Source: Parcubacteria group bacterium Gr01-1014_20
Lineage (GTDB): Bacteria; Patescibacteriota; Minisyncoccia; UBA6257; 2-01-FULL-56-20
NCBI GenBank assembly: GCA_007376265.1
Contig: VMFW01000013.1
Location: 1-36,748 of the forward strand
Direction: 5' to 3'
Length of the DNA: 36,748 nt
This document shows, in pieces, positions 2,946-33,680 of the stretch (position 1 is its first letter; each line of letters begins with the position of its first letter). The translations under genes were made by a program, and so were the position numbers. The notes under the pieces are model-generated. The model was not told where the DNA came from and made no database searches. It worked only from the letters and a program-made list of their open reading frames with translations.

Positions 2946-3311
2946 ATGTCAGACAAATTACAAGAATTAATCACAAAAATTGAAGGCCTAAGCGCTCTCG
3001 AATTAGCCGAGATCGTCAAAGCCCTCGAAGAGAAGTTTGGTATTAGCGCCGCTGCTCCAATGGCTGCCGGAGCCGCTGCTGGGCCTACCGCCGAAGCCAA
3101 GGACAGCTTCAACGTCCTTTTGAAAGCCACCGGTGATCAAAAGATCAACGTCATCAAAGTGGTTCGGGAAATCACGGGTCTTGGTCTCAAGGAAGCCAAG
3201 GACATCGTCGATGCCGCCCCGAAAGTCGTCAAAGAAGGCCTCAAGAAGCCCGAAGCTGACGAACTCAAAGCTAAACTCGAAGCCGCCGGTGCCACCGTCG
3301 AACTTCAGTAG
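2946..3311 (+). CDS. rplL: 50S ribosomal protein L7/L12
   Basis: Characteristic C-terminus [56 protein letters not shown]. Confidence 0.98.
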
Positions 3312-3324
3312 GATTCAGATATAA

Positions 3325-3354
3325 CTAAAAACCCCTCAAGTAAGGGGTTTTTAG
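3325..3354 (+). terminator. Intrinsic terminator of rplJL
   Basis: CTAAAAACCCCT / AGGGGTTTTTAG. Confidence 0.9.
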
Positions 3355-3407
3355 TTTATAGCGCCTAGTTGTGGTTAAATACCCCAATAATGATAAAATT
3401 TTAAGTA

Positions 3408-4304
3408 ATGAATTTTCTTAAAGAAAACGCGACTTGGATCGGATCAGTGCTCTACGCTCTCGGGTTTTTAATTCTTATCATTCCAAACTCCGTAAGAATA
3501 TATAAATACAAAATAAAGGGAGCTGATTTCAGCAAGACCTCCAAGAAGGTTAAAATTTCTATAGCTATTGTTGCGCTCCTTTTCATTGCTCAAGCAATTC
3601 TTCAAACCTCAGCCTCTACCTTCTCAAATCCTTTTGCTTTATTTATGTGGTTGCTGCCCATAGCTTTTTTTATACTTTTTGCAGTAGATATGCGCTTTCC
3701 CTATCAAACAAAAAACGACAAAGCAATTCAAAAGTTAAGAAGGTTTAGATATCTTGGTGGTGGCTTAGCGGTTGCTGGAGCAGCATTTATTGCATTTGGA
3801 CTAACTTCTGGGGGATCAACACCTGTAAACAACTCGAACAACAACCAAGCAAGTTCGTCTCAAATTGCTAGCTGGAAAACGTATCGAAGTGACCAGCATG
3901 GATTTGAATTTAAATATCCGTCCAGCTGGACCGTGTATCCGTACGCCCTCGATGGTGTTATAGATTTCATATCTGCTAACCAATCAGACGGAAGTGAGGC
4001 CGGTATCGCGGTAAAAAGCATAGGTAAAATGTCTCTTGATGACGCGAAATTATTTGTCGAAAAAAAACGGAAAGAGTTGCAAAGAACTCAATATGGACCT
4101 CCAGAATTCGTTACGATCCAAGAGGCCCCCGCAGTAAGGTATTCATACACTCCGTTCGAAATTATACCTCCGGGTTTAATATATTATTTCTACGAGAAAG
4201 GCATAGAGTTTGAAATTTCTGATCTTTTTGAAGACGGTCAGATAATGAGTGCCAGTACGGGCACAACGCAGCAAATCATACTCTCGTCAATAAAATTCTT
4301 TTAG
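3408..4304 (+). CDS. Membrane protein with C-terminal PsbP-like extracytoplasmic domain
   Basis: Several TM segments, then WKTYRSDQHGFEFKYPSSWTVY, typical of PsbP-like domains. Confidence 0.65.
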   Translation: MNFLKENATWIGSVLYALGFLILIIPNSVRIYKYKIKGADFSKTSKKVKISIAIVALLFIAQAILQTSASTFSNPFALFMWLLPIAFFILFAVDMRFPYQTKNDKAIQKLRRFRYLGGGLAVAGAAFIAFGLTSGGSTPVNNSNNNQASSSQIASWKTYRSDQHGFEFKYPSSWTVYPYALDGVIDFISANQSDGSEAGIAVKSIGKMSLDDAKLFVEKKRKELQRTQYGPPEFVTIQEAPAVRYSYTPFEIIPPGLIYYFYEKGIEFEISDLFEDGQIMSASTGTTQQIILSSIKFF

Positions 4305-8042: not shown

Positions 8043-9026
8043 ATGGCAACCAAAGAAGAAGTTTTACAATACGTAAAAACTCTCGCGGAGCAAAACGTCG
8101 TTACTAAAGACGAACTAATAAGTGCCTATAATTCTGGTTCAAACGTTAAGGGAGATCAGGTGATCACTAAGCGACTCGGCATTGCCGAAATCCTCTACTA
8201 CATCGGCGGAGCCATCGTCTTTATCGGCATCGCGATTTTTGTTTTCCAAAACTGGGAAGACTTGAACGGCTTTACCCGTATCCTGGCTACTCTCGGTTCA
8301 GGCATTGCCGCTTACATCATTGGCCTTATCTTCTATCGAGACGAAAGAACCGAAACCATCGGTTCCGCTTTCCATTTGATCTCAGCGTTAGTTACTCCCA
8401 TCGGCCTTTATGTTGTTTTTGACAACGCCGGCTTTGATGTGAGCGGTAGTGGTTGGCAAAGTCTTATTTCTGGTATCCTCTTTGCGGAATTTATGGCTTC
8501 CTATTTTGTATTTCGAAGAAGCATCTTTATTCTGTTTAGTATTATTTTTGGAACCTGGTTTTTCTATGTCTTCACTAACTACATGGTCGGTACCCACCCC
8601 TACTTTAGTATTTGGAAATATTACTGGTATCGTACACTCGTCGTTGGTAGTGCCTACATGTCTTTAGGTTACTTCTTCAGTAAAAATAATCGCGAGCAAC
8701 TCTCCGGCTTTCTGTATGGGTTTGGCACCTTAGGCTTCCTGGGCGCCGCCTTCGCGCTCGGCGGTTGGAAACCCGAGCAAAACGCATTTTGGGAGTTAAT
8801 TTTCCCCCTCCTTACTTTTGGAGCCCTCTTCTTGAGCGTTCATCTCAAAAACACCGCTTTTCTAACTTACGGCACTCTTTATCTGATGGCCTACATCCTA
8901 AAACTTACCAGTGAATATTTTAGTGACAGTTTGGGTTGGCCCCTTACGCTCGTCATCGCCGGTCTGTTTCTGATCGCCGCCGGCTATCTGTACGTCTTTC
9001 TAAGAAAGAAATATATTTCCACATAG
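8043..9026 (+). CDS. DUF2157-like multi-pass membrane protein
   Basis: N-terminal helical region followed by repeated TM segments with the DUF2157-like pattern. Confidence 0.65.
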   Translation: MATKEEVLQYVKTLAEQNVVTKDELISAYNSGSNVKGDQVITKRLGIAEILYYIGGAIVFIGIAIFVFQNWEDLNGFTRILATLGSGIAAYIIGLIFYRDERTETIGSAFHLISALVTPIGLYVVFDNAGFDVSGSGWQSLISGILFAEFMASYFVFRRSIFILFSIIFGTWFFYVFTNYMVGTHPYFSIWKYYWYRTLVVGSAYMSLGYFFSKNNREQLSGFLYGFGTLGFLGAAFALGGWKPEQNAFWELIFPLLTFGALFLSVHLKNTAFLTYGTLYLMAYILKLTSEYFSDSLGWPLTLVIAGLFLIAAGYLYVFLRKKYIST

Positions 9027-9055
9027 TACCCACTCCCTAAACCTATAGTTTTAGT

Positions 9056-24665: not shown

Positions 24666-25172
24666 ATGAAAATAAAAAACATCATCACTTTTGCTATAAT
24701 TGCCCTCATCGTTTTCGGCGGTGTATTCGTGTTTAGTCAGAATAGTAACGATGACGCGAAAACGCTGACTCAATCGGCCAGTTTACTAAGTGCTTTTGAG
24801 AAAGACTTTGATTTTGGCCCGATCTCGATGAAAAACGGCAATGTTTCAAAGGTTTTTGAGCTAAAAAATGAGGGTGTCGAACCGATTGCGATTAGCAAGG
24901 TTTACACTTCGTGTATGTGCACGGTTGCGAAAATCACAGACGCTAAGGGTGTTGTTTCGGGACCTTTTGGAATGCCCGGTCACGGTGGCGGCATTTCGAA
25001 GGCCGATCTCGAAGTGGCGCCAGGGGAAACAATTAAAGTTGAGGCTATCTTTAACCCGGCGGCCCATGGGCCATCGGGCGTGGGTTTGGCCAATCGAACT
25101 ATCTTCATCGAAACCAACTCCAGCCAAACGCCAAAAGTCGAACTGAATTTTACGGCTACGGTTACCAATTAG
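24666..25172 (+). CDS. DUF1573 domain protein, membrane anchored
   Basis: FDFGPISMKNGNVSKVFELKNEGVEPIAISKVYTSCMCTVA. Confidence 0.85.
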   Translation: MKIKNIITFAIIALIVFGGVFVFSQNSNDDAKTLTQSASLLSAFEKDFDFGPISMKNGNVSKVFELKNEGVEPIAISKVYTSCMCTVAKITDAKGVVSGPFGMPGHGGGISKADLEVAPGETIKVEAIFNPAAHGPSGVGLANRTIFIETNSSQTPKVELNFTATVTN

Positions 25173-25173
25173 C

Positions 25174-26091
25174 ATGGAGCTTATCTTTAGCGCCTCAATT
25201 CTCGCGGCTTTCTTAGCGGGGATGGTGGCGCTCTTTGCGCCTTGTTGTATCACCGTGCTTTTGCCTGCGTACCTCGCTTCAGCTTTTCGAGAAAAGAAAA
25301 ACATCATCCGTATGACCTTGCTCTTTTTCCTGGGTATCGCCGTTGTTCTAATTCCTATCGGCCTAGGCGCGGCCTGGCTTGCGAGTATCTTCCAGGACTT
25401 CCATAAAGAAATGTATTTGATTGGGGGGACATTCATGATCATTCTCGCCATTTTTTCGATTTTCGGAAAAAGCATAGCCATGATTCCGATGCTTAAAAAC
25501 ATCAAGCCGAAACTCTCCGCCTCCCATCCCAAATCCGTCTTTCTCCTCGGAATCCTGTCTGGCGCCGCCACTTCTTGTTGTGCGCCAGTTTTGGCCGGAG
25601 CAGTGACTCTTGCCGTGGTCTCGGGAGCGTTTTGGAAGGCGCTCATTGTTACCTTTGCTTATGTTTTCGGAATGGTTTTCCCGCTCTTCTTGGCGGCGTA
25701 CTTCTACGACAAGTTCAAACTGGAGAAGTCTAAAATCATTCAAGGCAAAGTAATGGAATTTAGAATTAGAGGAAAGGATTACTTTATTCACTCAACCAAT
25801 CTTCTGGCCGCTGGCATATTCTTTCTAATCGGCATTACGATGGTGGTGTTAGGTTTTTCTGGCGACACTTATTGGGCGCCCGGCTCTCAGGTGGCTGTCG
25901 GAAATTTCCTAAACCGAACCACTATTAGTTTCTTTGAAATAGCCAAAGGTGTGCCCGAGATAATTTGGGCAGTGCTTATCTTGGGATTGTTCGGCTACTT
26001 CATTTATCGAGCCGTCAGAAAATCTACGGAACTGGAATTGCCAAAAGAAGGTGAGGCTGAAGCAAAAGAAGAAAAAAAGTCGTGTCATTAA
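25174..26091 (+). CDS. CcdA/DsbD-like transmembrane protein (normal TM order)
   Basis: MVALFAPCCITVLLPAYLASAF at N-terminus; GAATSCCAPVLAGAVTLAVVSG. Confidence 0.75.
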   Translation: MELIFSASILAAFLAGMVALFAPCCITVLLPAYLASAFREKKNIIRMTLLFFLGIAVVLIPIGLGAAWLASIFQDFHKEMYLIGGTFMIILAIFSIFGKSIAMIPMLKNIKPKLSASHPKSVFLLGILSGAATSCCAPVLAGAVTLAVVSGAFWKALIVTFAYVFGMVFPLFLAAYFYDKFKLEKSKIIQGKVMEFRIRGKDYFIHSTNLLAAGIFFLIGITMVVLGFSGDTYWAPGSQVAVGNFLNRTTISFFEIAKGVPEIIWAVLILGLFGYFIYRAVRKSTELELPKEGEAEAKEEKKSCH

Positions 26092-28498: not shown

Positions 28499-30661
28499 AT
28501 GAAAGATCATTCTTGTTGCGAAGATGGTAAAAATCTGAAAAATCAAGAGCCGACGGATATAGTAGGCGGTGTTTCCTATACTTGTCCTATGCATCCAGAG
28601 ATCCAACAGGATCAGCCCGGGATGTGTCCAGAGTGTGGAATGGCATTGGTAAGTCAAAAGTCAAAAGTTAATAGTCGTAAGTCGGAGCACGGTGAACACG
28701 ACAAGCACGCCGGGCATTCCACGGAACAATTCTTAAAGAAGTTTTGGGTGAGTCTGGTTTTGTCGGTGCCGGTTGTTCTCTATTCTGATTTCGCTAGCCA
28801 AATCTTGAAAATCGAAGCGCCGGAATTTCCTGGCTCTCGGTACCTGCCGTTTATTTTGGGTTCCTTTGTTTTCTTCTACGCTGGCATGATTTTTCTCGCG
28901 AGCGCTTGGAGAGAAATTCGGGCCAAGCTCCCCGGCATGATGACTTTGATTTCGCTCGCCATCACCGCCGCCTACCTCTACAGCGTCTTTGTGACTATTA
29001 GGGGAGAAGGAGAGACTTTATTTTGGGAACTAACCACGCTTGTTACGATCATGCTTTTAGGGCACTGGATTGAGATGCGGGCGGTCAAAGGCGCTCAAGG
29101 CGCCTTAAAAGAGCTCTCAAAACTCCTCCCGGACACCGCCGAAGTGATTCGAGGCGGCGAGCAAAAAATAGTTCCCTTAAGCGAACTCAAAGAAGGGGAT
29201 GTCGTTTTCGTTCGCCCCGGCGGAAGGATTCCAGCTGATGGCATAGTCATTGAAGGAAAATCCGAAACGAATGAATCGATGATCACCGGAGAGTCCGCGC
29301 TGGTGCCTAAGAAAGAAAATAGCGAAGTCATCGCTGGCACAGTGAATGGTGACGGTTCTCTTAAAATCAAAGTGACCAAAGTGGGGGACCACACCTTTCT
29401 CTCTGGTGTAATGCGTTTGGTTCGCGAAGCCCAAGCTTCGAAATCAAAACTCCAAATTTTATCCGACAAAGCCGCTTACTACTTAACCGTAGTCGCCATT
29501 GCCTCGGGTGGCCTCTCTTTTATTCTTTGGCTTTTAGCCAAGGCTGGTTTCGATTTTGCGCTCGAGCGCCTCGTGGCAGTCTTGGTGATCGCTTGCCCGC
29601 ACGCGCTGGGGTTGGCGGTGCCACTTGTTGCTTCCATTTCCACCACCATGGCCGCGCGAAACGGATTTCTCGTGAAAAACCGCCTAGCGCTTGAGATGGC
29701 TCGTTCGATTGATGTGGTTCTTTTCGATAAAACTGGCACGCTTACCAAGGGTGAATATGGTGTGACTGATGTTTGGTTAAGCAAGTCAAAATCCGAAAAC
29801 GATTTAATTCAAATCGCCGCCGCCGTGGATTTTCACTCCGAACATCCGATTTCGAAAGCCATAGTCGCTGAAGCCAAAAAGAGAAATCTAAAAATAGATT
29901 CTGTGGCGGATTTCAAACGCCTGCCCGGCAAAGGCGGGGAAGCTAAGTTGGATGGGCGAAGAATCTTGGTTGGCGGCCACGCCATCCTCGAGAATAACTT
30001 CAATTTGTCGAGCGATATTAAATCCAAAACTGAAATCGAAGCGGATAAGGGAAAAACCATTATTTATGTTCTCGAAAATAATGAGCTTTTGGGTGTCTTG
30101 GGTCTTGCGGATGTTATCCGTGAGGAGTCCCGCGAAGCCATCCAAGCCCTAAAAGCGATGAACGTAAATGTGGCGATGATTACCGGTGACTCCGAAAAAG
30201 TGGCCGAGTGGGTTGCCAAGGACTTGGGAATTGATGAGTACTTTGCTCGGGTTTTGCCGGGTGAAAAGTCTGAAAAAGTTAAACTCCTACAGTCGAAGGG
30301 CAGTAAAGTGGCGATGGTGGGGGACGGTATCAACGACGCGCCGGCTTTAGTGCAAGCCGATTTGGGAGTCGCGATCGGTGCGGGGACAAATGTGGCGATC
30401 GAGTCGGCCGGAATCATCTTGATGAAAAATGACCCGAGGGATATAGTAAAGATCATCCGACTTTCTAGGTTAACCTACACCAAAATGATTCAAAATCTTT
30501 TCTGGGCCACGGGTTATAATATAATCGCGATTCCCTTGGCGGCCGGCGCGCTCTGGAACCAAGGCATTACGCTAGCTCCCGCCTTCGCCGCCGTTTTGAT
30601 GTCACTCTCAACCGTGATTGTGTCAGTAAACGCTGCTTTTCTACGCAAAAGGTCGTTATAA
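28499..30661 (+). CDS. copB: Heavy-metal P1B-type ATPase, CPH motif (CopB-like), with N-terminal heavy-metal-binding domain
   Basis: YTCPMHPEIQQDQPGMCPECGMALV; VIACPHALGLAVPL; DKTGTLTKG; GDGINDAPAL. Confidence 0.93.
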   Translation: MKDHSCCEDGKNLKNQEPTDIVGGVSYTCPMHPEIQQDQPGMCPECGMALVSQKSKVNSRKSEHGEHDKHAGHSTEQFLKKFWVSLVLSVPVVLYSDFASQILKIEAPEFPGSRYLPFILGSFVFFYAGMIFLASAWREIRAKLPGMMTLISLAITAAYLYSVFVTIRGEGETLFWELTTLVTIMLLGHWIEMRAVKGAQGALKELSKLLPDTAEVIRGGEQKIVPLSELKEGDVVFVRPGGRIPADGIVIEGKSETNESMITGESALVPKKENSEVIAGTVNGDGSLKIKVTKVGDHTFLSGVMRLVREAQASKSKLQILSDKAAYYLTVVAIASGGLSFILWLLAKAGFDFALERLVAVLVIACPHALGLAVPLVASISTTMAARNGFLVKNRLALEMARSIDVVLFDKTGTLTKGEYGVTDVWLSKSKSENDLIQIAAAVDFHSEHPISKAIVAEAKKRNLKIDSVADFKRLPGKGGEAKLDGRRILVGGHAILENNFNLSSDIKSKTEIEADKGKTIIYVLENNELLGVLGLADVIREESREAIQALKAMNVNVAMITGDSEKVAEWVAKDLGIDEYFARVLPGEKSEKVKLLQSKGSKVAMVGDGINDAPALVQADLGVAIGAGTNVAIESAGIILMKNDPRDIVKIIRLSRLTYTKMIQNLFWATGYNIIAIPLAAGALWNQGITLAPAFAAVLMSLSTVIVSVNAAFLRKRSL

Positions 30662-30674
30662 AAAACAATATATA

Positions 30675-31118
30675 ATGAAAAAATTCTTAGTAGTTACCTC
30701 AATGTTGGGAATTTTGGTAATGCCCCCGTTTGCTTCTGCCCAAGGTATGATGAATTTTTCTGACGCCCAAACGCCTTCGAATATGATGCAGTACCTCGGA
30801 GAAAAAACTCTTGGTCCAGAAATTTACGCCGAAACCCAAGACTTGATGGCGAAAATGATGACCGGTAAGTTGACGGAAGAGGAAGCCAGCCGGATGATCG
30901 AAATTATGAACCAGTATCCTGGCCCTATGGGAATGATGATGGGCGGTTACAACCAACAGGATTATCGTAGTCAGAACTGGGGGATGCCACACATGGGCTA
31001 TTGGGCTGATAGCAATTATAGTCCTTGGTCATGGGTTAGCGGCTTGATGCATCTCGTATGGCTCCTGATAAGCATTCTCGCGTTAGTTTGGCTTTGGCAA
31101 AAAGTGACGAAAAAATAA
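30675..31118 (+). CDS. Exported Met-rich protein
   Basis: Signal peptide; GPMGMMMGGYNQQ, NWGMPHMGYW. Confidence 0.65.
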   Translation: MKKFLVVTSMLGILVMPPFASAQGMMNFSDAQTPSNMMQYLGEKTLGPEIYAETQDLMAKMMTGKLTEEEASRMIEIMNQYPGPMGMMMGGYNQQDYRSQNWGMPHMGYWADSNYSPWSWVSGLMHLVWLLISILALVWLWQKVTKK

Positions 31119-31192: not shown

Positions 31193-31801
31193 ATGAAAAA
31201 CCTTTGTTCAAAATCAGGTTTGGCAGCTGCAGTCCTGATCGGCATTATTACGAGCGTTATTATTTTGGGTAGTATTATTTATTTTACCTCGTCGAGTCAA
31301 AGTGAAACGGCGGAAACGTTCGATGACAAGAGTGATATTACGCCGGTGGACAAGAATGGTGACGCCGTGATAGGTGAGAAAAAAACGATGCCGATCATGA
31401 AGGACGATATGGAAAAAATGATCACTTTTTCTGGAACTGTTTTGGCCGGCAGCGCCGCCCCACTTCTAGATTTCACAAAAATCGACTACGAAACAGCCCT
31501 CAAATCCGACAAACTCGTTGTTCTTTATTTTTATGCCAACTGGTGCCCGATTTGCAAAGAAGAAGTACCGAGATTACAAGCGGCCTTCAACGAACTCCAA
31601 ACCTCTCGGGCGGTTGGTTTCCGGGTGAACTTTAAAGACAACGAAACCGATAAAGACGAAGAAACCCTTGCTAGGCAATTCGGAGTTAGCTATCAGCACA
31701 CCAAGGTGTTTCTCAAAAATAGCGAACGAGTACTGAAAGCTCCAGACAGTTGGAGTAAGGATCGTTACTTGAGCGAGATTAATAAATTTCTAACAAATTA
31801 A
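31193..31801 (+). CDS. Thioredoxin-like membrane-anchored protein
   Basis: LVVLYFYANWCPICKEEVPRLQ. Confidence 0.85.
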   Translation: MKNLCSKSGLAAAVLIGIITSVIILGSIIYFTSSSQSETAETFDDKSDITPVDKNGDAVIGEKKTMPIMKDDMEKMITFSGTVLAGSAAPLLDFTKIDYETALKSDKLVVLYFYANWCPICKEEVPRLQAAFNELQTSRAVGFRVNFKDNETDKDEETLARQFGVSYQHTKVFLKNSERVLKAPDSWSKDRYLSEINKFLTN

Positions 31802-32586
31802 TGGAAAACCAAGCCTTACCTCAAAAATCTTCCAGCCCAAGCCGTTGGGACATTTTTCTATCCAGCTTCTTCTTTGTTCTAGGTTTTTCCGTAGTTTTTT
31901 CTCTAGTCGGTGTTCTCCTCCAAACCGTGCTTGAAAGTTCATCCTATACCGTCCAAGAATGGTTAGGGCGAATTGGGGGGGCGATCATCATTCTTTTCGG
32001 GTTGGTCGTCTTAAGACTTTTAAAAATTCCGTTTCTAGAACGCGATCATAAACTCGCGGTCAAAACCCGTTTCAGCTCGCGTTACCTAACCTCTTTTGTT
32101 TTTGGCGCCGCCTTCGCCGTTGGCTGGACGCCATGTGTAAGCGCGGCCCTGGGAGCTATTTTAGCCCTAGCCGCCACCGCCCCCGGAGGCGCCTTCGTTC
32201 TCCTCATGGCCTACGCCCTTGGTATCGGGCTACCATTTCTCCTTGTTGGCCTTTTCACTAGTCAGGCTCAAAACCTAATCAACCGCGCCGGTCGGTGGCT
32301 CGAATATTTTCAGTATTTCTTCGGGGTAGTCTTAATTATTCTTGGCATCTTGGTTTTTGTCGGCCAGCTGAACCGAGTCGCTAATTTAGAATTTGTCGTT
32401 AACTTTCTAGACACGCTCGGCGTTTCTACCTCTGCCGGCGAAAATATCAACTCCCTAAACCCAATAAATCTCGGCATCGCTTTTTTTGCCGGGCTAGCTT
32501 CTTTTCTTAGCCCCTGCATCTTGCCGCTTATCCCAGGATTTATCTCTTACTTAGCCTCGACCACTCCCAAAAAATCATCAGTTTGA
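31801..32586 (+). CDS. CcdA-family thiol-redox membrane protein with circularly permuted TM order
   Basis: Starts at the TM2 equivalent (SRWDIFLSSFFFVLGFSVVFSLVGVL), contains FAVGWTPCVSAALGAILALAA, ends with FFAGLASFLSPCILPLIPGFISYLAS. Confidence 0.85.
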   Translation: MENQALPQKSSSPSRWDIFLSSFFFVLGFSVVFSLVGVLLQTVLESSSYTVQEWLGRIGGAIIILFGLVVLRLLKIPFLERDHKLAVKTRFSSRYLTSFVFGAAFAVGWTPCVSAALGAILALAATAPGGAFVLLMAYALGIGLPFLLVGLFTSQAQNLINRAGRWLEYFQYFFGVVLIILGILVFVGQLNRVANLEFVVNFLDTLGVSTSAGENINSLNPINLGIAFFAGLASFLSPCILPLIPGFISYLASTTPKKSSV

Positions 32587-32588
32587 TT

Positions 32589-33680
32589 ATGGGAAACAAA
32601 AAAATCCTTCTCCCCCTGGTAGTCATAGCCATCATGGCGACCATTCTGTACCTAGATTCGGGTAAAATAAAACCCAGCGAAAATCTGCCCAAAGATCAAG
32701 CCGTCACTCCCTGTGACTTGGCGAATAGTTCGAAGTACGAGTGCTATCACGAAATTTCTACCCCGGATGGATTTCTAAACACCCCCTCGGTAAACCCAGG
32801 ACAACTCGAGCCAATCACGATAGGGGAGCTGGTTGGTAAAAAAGTGATTTTGGTAGATTTCTGGACCTACACTTGCATCAACTGCCAACGCACTCTGCCT
32901 TACCTCAATGCCTGGTACGAGAAATACGAAGACGAAGGGTTGGAAATTATCGGTATCCACACGCCCGAATTCGAATTTGAAAAAAAATATGAAAATGTCA
33001 AAGCCGCGGTGGATAAGTTTAAAATTAAATATCCGGTGGTTCTAGACAACGACTTTTCCACCTGGAATGCTTATCAAAACCGTTTTTGGCCAAGAAAATA
33101 TTTAATCGATATCCGCGGGAACATTATCTACGACCACATTGGCGAAGGAGGTTATGAGGAAACCGAAAAGAAAATTCAAGAAGCGCTGAAAGAACGAATG
33201 AGCGTGTTAGGAGTCGAAGGTGAACTCCCGAGCGAAATCGGCTCTCCCAAAGGCGTGACCGCAGTCGATCCGTCAAGAGTTGGGAGCCCCGAGGTCTACT
33301 TTGGCGCCGCGAGAAATGAGTTCTTGGGCAACGGCAAAAAAGGAGTGGTGGGAGACCAGGCCTTCGGCGAACCCGAGGATTTTAAACGAAACATCCTTTT
33401 CTTAGTTGGAAACTGGAATATCAAAGAAGAGTCCGCGGAAAACAAGACTGCTAGCGCTAAAATTATTTTTAAATATAGCGCGAAAAACGTCTACATGGTG
33501 GCTGGTTCAGAAAAAGGGGCTAAGCTAAAAATTATAAATGATGGTAAGGAGGTAAACTCCCTGATCGTCAAAGAAGAAGTGCTGTATCCGATCATAGAGA
33601 ATTCAACCTACGGCGAGCACCTCCTTGAAATCATCATCGAAAATCCGGGTCTCATCGCTTTCACCTTTACTTTCGGTTAA
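32589..33680 (+). CDS. TlpA-like thioredoxin with DipZ-like C-terminal domain
   Basis: DFWTYTCINCQRTLPYLNAWYEKYEDEGLEIIGIHTPEFEFE; C-terminal YGEHLLEIIIENPGLIAFTFTFG. Confidence 0.85.
   Translation: MGNKKILLPLVVIAIMATILYLDSGKIKPSENLPKDQAVTPCDLANSSKYECYHEISTPDGFLNTPSVNPGQLEPITIGELVGKKVILVDFWTYTCINCQRTLPYLNAWYEKYEDEGLEIIGIHTPEFEFEKKYENVKAAVDKFKIKYPVVLDNDFSTWNAYQNRFWPRKYLIDIRGNIIYDHIGEGGYEETEKKIQEALKERMSVLGVEGELPSEIGSPKGVTAVDPSRVGSPEVYFGAARNEFLGNGKKGVVGDQAFGEPEDFKRNILFLVGNWNIKEESAENKTASAKIIFKYSAKNVYMVAGSEKGAKLKIINDGKEVNSLIVKEEVLYPIIENSTYGEHLLEIIIENPGLIAFTFTFG

Follow-up and report, generated by a model that had tools for sequence, protein, structure and literature searches.

Does the open reading frame (ORF) at positions 31801-32586 (forward strand; 261 aa, ATG start) of the DNA stretch analysed here encode a CcdA protein whose first transmembrane helix (TM1) now lies at its C-terminus? 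The stretch, hereafter the window, comprises 36,748 nucleotides of contig VMFW01000013.1 from Parcubacteria group bacterium Gr01-1014_20, and an initial annotation had proposed that this ORF is a circularly permuted CcdA. Homology searches bore this proposal out. The only significant PDB match of the ORF was the CcdA of Thermus (TtCcdA, 5vkv), in two separately significant stretches and in swapped order: phmmer aligned residues 20-192 with TtCcdA 41-205 (i-E 3.9e-26) and residues 222-253 with TtCcdA 3-34 (i-E 2.1e-4). The Pfam DsbD_TM profile (PF02683) scored 66.6 bits against a curated cut-off of 27.1, which satisfies family membership, with ORF residues 16-184 on profile positions 42-213 plus a second stretch. 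Both redox cysteines expected of a CcdA are present, Cys239 in TM1 (SPC..P..P) and Cys112 in TM4 (GWTPC); the collinear TM1-to-TM6 order is not. Sequence comparison confirmed that each CcdA segment occurs once, in the order TM2-3-4-5-6-1, which places the protein as a permuted variant and not as an ordinary CcdA. It also has what is asked of a natural circular permutant, as the full domain content is rotated, the moved segment is unduplicated and the former ends are joined.

Along the chain, with all features on the forward strand, a K/R-bearing cytoplasmic N-tail precedes the TM2 equivalent (aa 15-46; 31843-31938), which was assigned from an AlphaFold2 (AF2) helix at residues 15-46, the 5vkv alignment and charge statistics. 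The TM3 equivalent (aa 49-70; 31945-32010) coincides with an AF2 helix, and the TM4 equivalent (aa 94-126; 32080-32178), predicted as helices 94-108 and 110-126, carries the invariant motif AVGWTPC with the Cys112 codon at 32134-32136. The TM5 (aa 128-151; 32182-32253) and TM6 (aa 164-187; 32290-32361) equivalents were taken from the AF2 model. An extracytoplasmic linker follows (about aa 188-221; 32362-32463), identified by its K/R content and its match to canonical C-tails, and leads to the C-terminal TM1 equivalent (aa 222-254; 32464-32562) with the motif FLSPCILPLIP and the Cys239 codon at 32515-32517; this last assignment rests on the match to 5vkv 3-34, on conservation and on a broken AF2 helix.

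The homologue search showed the permutation to be wider than first supposed, extending over Parcubacteria and DPANN archaea. Among the relatives of the window's genome, a full-length permuted form is encoded by two further genomes, one of them with two copies, and others have a canonical order. A scan of 84,980 species genomes gave about sixty permuted loci among the best 80; the sources of these 80 were bacterial (Lipton-, Taylor-, Nomura-, Kaiser-, Staskawicz-, Azam-, Sung- and Vogelbacteria) and archaeal (Woesearchaeota, Nanoarchaeota and Aenigmatarchaeota). In profile searches, permuted matches in a single stretch turned up in 29 of the 327 genomes from the Woesearchaeota/Nanoarchaeota phylum, in 10 of 156 of an Aenigmatarchaeota-type phylum and in 6 of 87 of the phylum of locus L100; among 380 genomes drawn across the phylum of the window, only the window's own match came up. 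All relatives come from uncultivated genomes. The viral contigs searched held no relatives. CcdA matches in the plasmids searched were all distant and none was permuted, with less than 80% of the query covered in every case, and the best consisted of two pieces in canonical order within an annotated CcdA gene.

This spread bears on two readings that would do away with the permutation. One takes the C-terminal SPC segment for an extra copy, with the true TM1 supplied by another gene or lost, as from a split or seven-helix ancestor; partial and frameshifted fragments occur in some MAGs (L041, L056 and L097) and would fit such a history. With identical sequences removed, classification yielded 204 ORFs, 86 of them permuted and 118 canonical, and not one had TM1 at both ends, which largely refutes a duplicate and agrees with the earlier claim that the segment was relocated. 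Moreover, the window has no SPC-bearing helix upstream of TM2, where the preceding gene has a single N-terminal TM anchor without SPC, and the permuted gene holds the operon position of the canonical one. We consider this reading extremely unlikely. The other, an assembly error, frameshift or pseudogene, draws on the MAG origin of the data and on two broken relatives (L056 and L097), but dozens of independent genomes from several phyla have this order in a single frame, which excludes chance and refutes an assembly error, and dN/dS well below 1 in both TM1 and core is at odds with a pseudogene. The chance left to it is practically negligible, in line with the initial annotation, which had judged a frameshift artefact unlikely.

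Between the window and its relative L034, TM1 gave dN 0.127 and dS 1.59 (dN/dS about 0.08) and the core gave dN 0.086 and dS 1.88 (dN/dS about 0.05); in three more distant pairs, pN was lower in TM1 (0.10-0.16) than in the core (0.17-0.19). Both cysteines and their motifs (GWTPC and SPC..P..P) were invariant in 55 aligned permuted sequences (alignment A1), as were the TM1 residues G, F, S, P, C, P and P, and the conservation profiles of permuted and canonical proteins correlated at r=0.86 in TM1 and r=0.82 in the core. Judged by substitution rates and conservation, TM1 and both active-site cysteines are under purifying selection. Coevolution between TM1 and core was not used as evidence, the strong raw correlation having mostly disappeared under an entropy-matched control (0.148 against 0.126 +/- 0.012, with 22 of 500 controls as high).

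How such a chain could keep the CcdA topology can be read from its charges. In the permuted set, K and R account for 19.8% of the N-tail, 21.9% of the C-tail and 3.6% of the linker, and in the canonical set for 22% of the TM1-TM2 loop, 0% of the N-tail and 6.3% of the C-tail. Under the positive-inside rule, this pattern indicates a break within the cytoplasmic TM1-TM2 loop and a closure outside, every helix keeping its direction and the topology being retained. The protein shares with CcdA/DsbD (PF02683; TtCcdA, 5vkv) the six helices, both Cys motifs and thioredoxin-like neighbours, and differs in its C-terminal TM1 and in its ends: the charges of this six-helix chain put both new termini in the cytoplasm, not outside the membrane as in CcdA, the two free ends of CcdA are replaced by an extracytoplasmic linker, and the cytoplasmic tie of the TM1-TM2 loop is lost. 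A canonical N(out)-TM1-6-C(out) chain would thus have been cut at that loop and its former ends, both extracytoplasmic, connected by the linker, giving N(in)-TM2-3-4-5-6-linker(out)-TM1-C(in). All six helices are inferred to retain their orientation and contacts, in which case Cys112 (TM4) and Cys239 (TM1) would still form the central redox pair, and TM1 would be tethered to the scaffold only from outside, via TM6.

The linker itself carries traces of its history. Its first 22 residues, a stretch that takes in a few residues of TM6, gave a mean local score of 33 against canonical C-tails, compared with 16 +/- 0.2 for shuffled linkers (LSRIANFE.. is an example of the resemblance), and its end resembles a short canonical N-tail; as a whole it resembles a canonical C-tail, a spacer and a canonical N-tail in succession. 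A C-tail-like start and an N-tail-like end are the remnant expected of an in-frame tandem duplication whose outer parts were lost. We infer that the most likely origin would be such a duplication of ccdA, after which the first copy lost TM1 and the second lost TM2-6; no fused ccdA-ccdA intermediate was found among the relatives.

The within-chain packing of TM1 is inferred as well, and a domain-swapped oligomer, in which the C-terminal TM1 enters the O-shaped scaffold of a neighbouring copy and a dimer or ring does the work, has to be weighed against it. The TM6-to-TM1 linker is long (about 34-38 aa in the ORF) and varies in length and sequence between permuted groups, and no measurement places the TM1/TM4 pair within one chain. 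Nevertheless, TtCcdA is described as monomeric (PMC7329351), the linker ends lie on the same side of the membrane with length enough for a return within the chain, and the monomeric AF2 model built on 55 permuted sequences reached a pTM of 0.74 (pLDDT 80). We regard a swap as quite unlikely. The model breaks the TM1 helix at the SPC..P motif, as does that of a canonical control. With Foldseek, its only significant PDB match was again 5vkv, over 176 columns and with a modest TMq of 0.43, compared with 218 columns and 0.60 for the canonical control, and a shorter match is expected if a sequential aligner follows TM2-6 only. To the extent of this match the predicted structure is CcdA-like, and placement of the C-terminal TM1 by TM4 is not shown by it.

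We also asked how often the order has changed, using trees built from rotated alignments with the linker omitted. The main permuted group formed a single clade (100/99). The Parcubacterial permuted genes (100/90) were nested in archaeal ones, the joint group standing at 100/99, and this nesting points to a transfer, permuted ccdA having probably passed from DPANN archaea to Parcubacteria. Three more permuted groups were recovered, one Aenigmatarchaeal (100/100), one of loci L195-197 (100/95) and one of L100/L199 (100/98), the last falling among canonical Micrarchaeota genes (clade support 100/97). The tree requires four order changes, of which the starred branches force two. A single origin, with all permuted genes held together, is weakly disfavoured (AU p=0.042 and 0.039); the main and Aenigmatarchaeal groups as one clade were not rejected (p=0.52), and the main group together with L100/L199 was weakly disfavoured (p=0.11). 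More than one origin is likely, though not proved, since the data are compatible with one to four, and a reversal to the canonical order in Micrarchaeota is an alternative to multiple origins. To us it is an even question whether the permutation arose several times independently in DPANN archaea, each time at the same cytoplasmic TM1-TM2 loop; the lineages concerned in that joint reading would be the main Woesearchaeota clade (from which Parcubacteria later received the gene), Aenigmatarchaeota and two of a Micrarchaeota-like phylum. If true, recurrent permutation would be a natural test, in a polytopic membrane transporter, of the need for a cytoplasmic-side tether on TM1. Both orders can occur side by side: one archaeal genome (L174) carries a permuted and a canonical ccdA (3033-3782 and 8327-9037) 4.5 kb apart, each adjoining its own thioredoxin partner, and a Liptonbacterium contig (L041) carries, about 2.6 kb upstream of its permuted gene, a truncated canonical ccdA that ends after TM3 (1061-1426) and has its own thioredoxin gene in front.

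In the window, the permuted gene lies between two partners. Upstream is a membrane-anchored thioredoxin-like protein with the motif NWCPICK (31193-31801, +; Pfam Thioredoxin, 2.4e-10), whose stop codon shares its last A with the ccdA start (TAATG), exactly as the initial annotation had described, and which, judged from this junction, is a translationally coupled partner of ccdA. Downstream is a membrane-anchored TlpA/ResA-like thioredoxin with the motif TYTCINCQ (32589-33680, +; AhpC-TSA, 1.5e-11) and a C-terminal DipZ-type Thioredoxin_10 domain (1.1e-24). The Pfam matches on both sides substantiate the annotated position between two thioredoxin-fold genes; the annotated overlap with the next gene holds only for the mechanically listed TTG start at 32583 and not for the more natural ATG at 32589, 2 bases past the ccdA stop. 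A Trx - CcdA - Trx/Thioredoxin_10 operon is common to permuted and canonical relatives. Counted as lower bounds, because detection was loose, a downstream thioredoxin-fold gene was present in at least 56 of 76 permuted and 59 of 101 canonical loci with room for one, Thioredoxin_10 in at least 51 of 76 and 56 of 101, and an upstream thioredoxin in at least 32 of 80 and 38 of 106, respectively. DipZ is a canonical CcdA fused to Trx and Thioredoxin_10 domains. The downstream gene of the window combines the same TlpA-like thioredoxin and Thioredoxin_10 domains, but the single-chain fusion is absent, as CcdA and Trx/Thioredoxin_10 are separate genes; a downstream thioredoxin that is encoded separately and brings its own TM anchor fits a CcdA that ends on the inner side of the membrane.

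Further upstream of the redox operon lie an HMBD-containing P-type ATPase (28499-30661, +; Pfam E1-E2_ATPase and HMBD) and, directly before the operon, an ORF for a Met-rich one-TM protein (30675-31118, +). A link to copper is possible, and membership of the operon is not shown. These two genes would favour the view that the permutant is a membrane protein that descends from CcdA but has taken on a new role, such as metal or thiol transport, in place of electron transfer to thioredoxins. The conservation of both redox cysteines and their motifs across the permuted set speaks against a new role, as do the extracytoplasmic thioredoxin-like partners that flank permuted genes as they do canonical ones, and we find it very unlikely. 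We consider it highly probable that the product of the permuted gene is a functional CcdA that underwent circular permutation in nature.

Its most likely activity, inferred without biochemical data, is thiol electron transfer in the manner of CcdA, with TM1 and TM4 acting as an elevator. In the elevator model, which comes from work on canonical CcdA and is summarised in PMC7329351, TM1 and TM4 move inside an O-shaped scaffold. By analogy with CcdA, a cytosolic dithiol donor, probably TrxB with a glutaredoxin-like protein, would reduce Cys112/Cys239, and the TM1/TM4 elevator would present the pair outside to the two neighbouring membrane-anchored thioredoxin-like proteins, which once reduced may keep extracytoplasmic cysteines reduced. 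The inferred path would run from NADPH through TrxB and a glutaredoxin-like carrier to Cys112/Cys239 and on to the extracytoplasmic thioredoxins. The window's genome has a gene for a TrxB-like protein that carries the motif CSIC, and an 80-aa glutaredoxin-like frame. Its sole Pfam Thioredoxin match is the membrane-anchored upstream partner, so that some other protein has to act as the cytosolic donor.

Among soluble proteins, natural circular permutation is a familiar phenomenon. For membrane proteins, the relationship of VKOR and DsbB was presented in 2015 as the first case of circular permutation linking two helical families (PMC4555120), and a 2020 paper stated that its authors knew of no such permutation observed in a membrane protein (PMC7162841). 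VKOR/DsbB likewise concerns a redox-active membrane helix bundle for which duplication and deletion were proposed as the route (PMC4555120), but its divergence hides direction and history, whereas permuted and canonical CcdA of the same group are about 50-65% identical in the core, fall in one tree and share an operon context. This close relationship makes the origin, break point, linker history and topology directly readable. Engineered rhodopsin circular permutants (cited in PMC7162841) also show a polytopic helical membrane protein tolerating permutation; those were engineered, and the permuted CcdA is natural and fixed across lineages. We found no relevant paper on permuted CcdA or DsbD in the open-access literature, most subscription papers being outside this scope, and VKOR/DsbB is the only proposed precedent that we met there; permuted proteins match ordinary CcdA models, which makes the rearrangement easy to overlook. 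Permuted CcdA is among very few known natural circular permutations of multi-pass membrane proteins, and it illustrates a rare event, here in a known family, with unusual clarity. CcdA is proposed to work by movement of TM1 and TM4, and the permutant therefore also shows that a mobile helix cut inside and tethered outside is evolutionarily allowed.

Other DsbD_TM proteins were seen around these loci. The window encodes a second one at 25174-26091 (+), in canonical order, with the unusual motifs FAPCCITVLLPAYL and SCCAPVLAGA and directly preceded by a DUF1573 gene (24666-25172). A third DsbD_TM domain, with the motif LPCTLPLAF, is encoded on the minus strand of L003 (C11 of the window's own genome), in a protein of over 720 aa with a His/Met-rich extracytoplasmic part. 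TM1-only matches upstream of permuted genes in Woesearchaeota had suggested a split gene, a candidate we rejected when they proved to belong to another protein, which is DsbD_TM-like, complete and accompanied by its own thioredoxin. This distinct family (APLGAVCVLPLYPGFL / ILPCNPASL) sits just upstream of permuted ccdA at L036:2229-2918 and L044:2281-2964. Finally, DUF3179-type proteins (CPLC) recur beside CcdA/thioredoxin genes at permuted and canonical loci alike (L041:1596-2585, L036:2896-3963, L044:2970-4007 and L174:9047-10483; Pfam was run for L041 only). They are possible substrates of the CcdA/thioredoxin pathway, a role that we only infer, and the one in L174 is fused to a thioredoxin.
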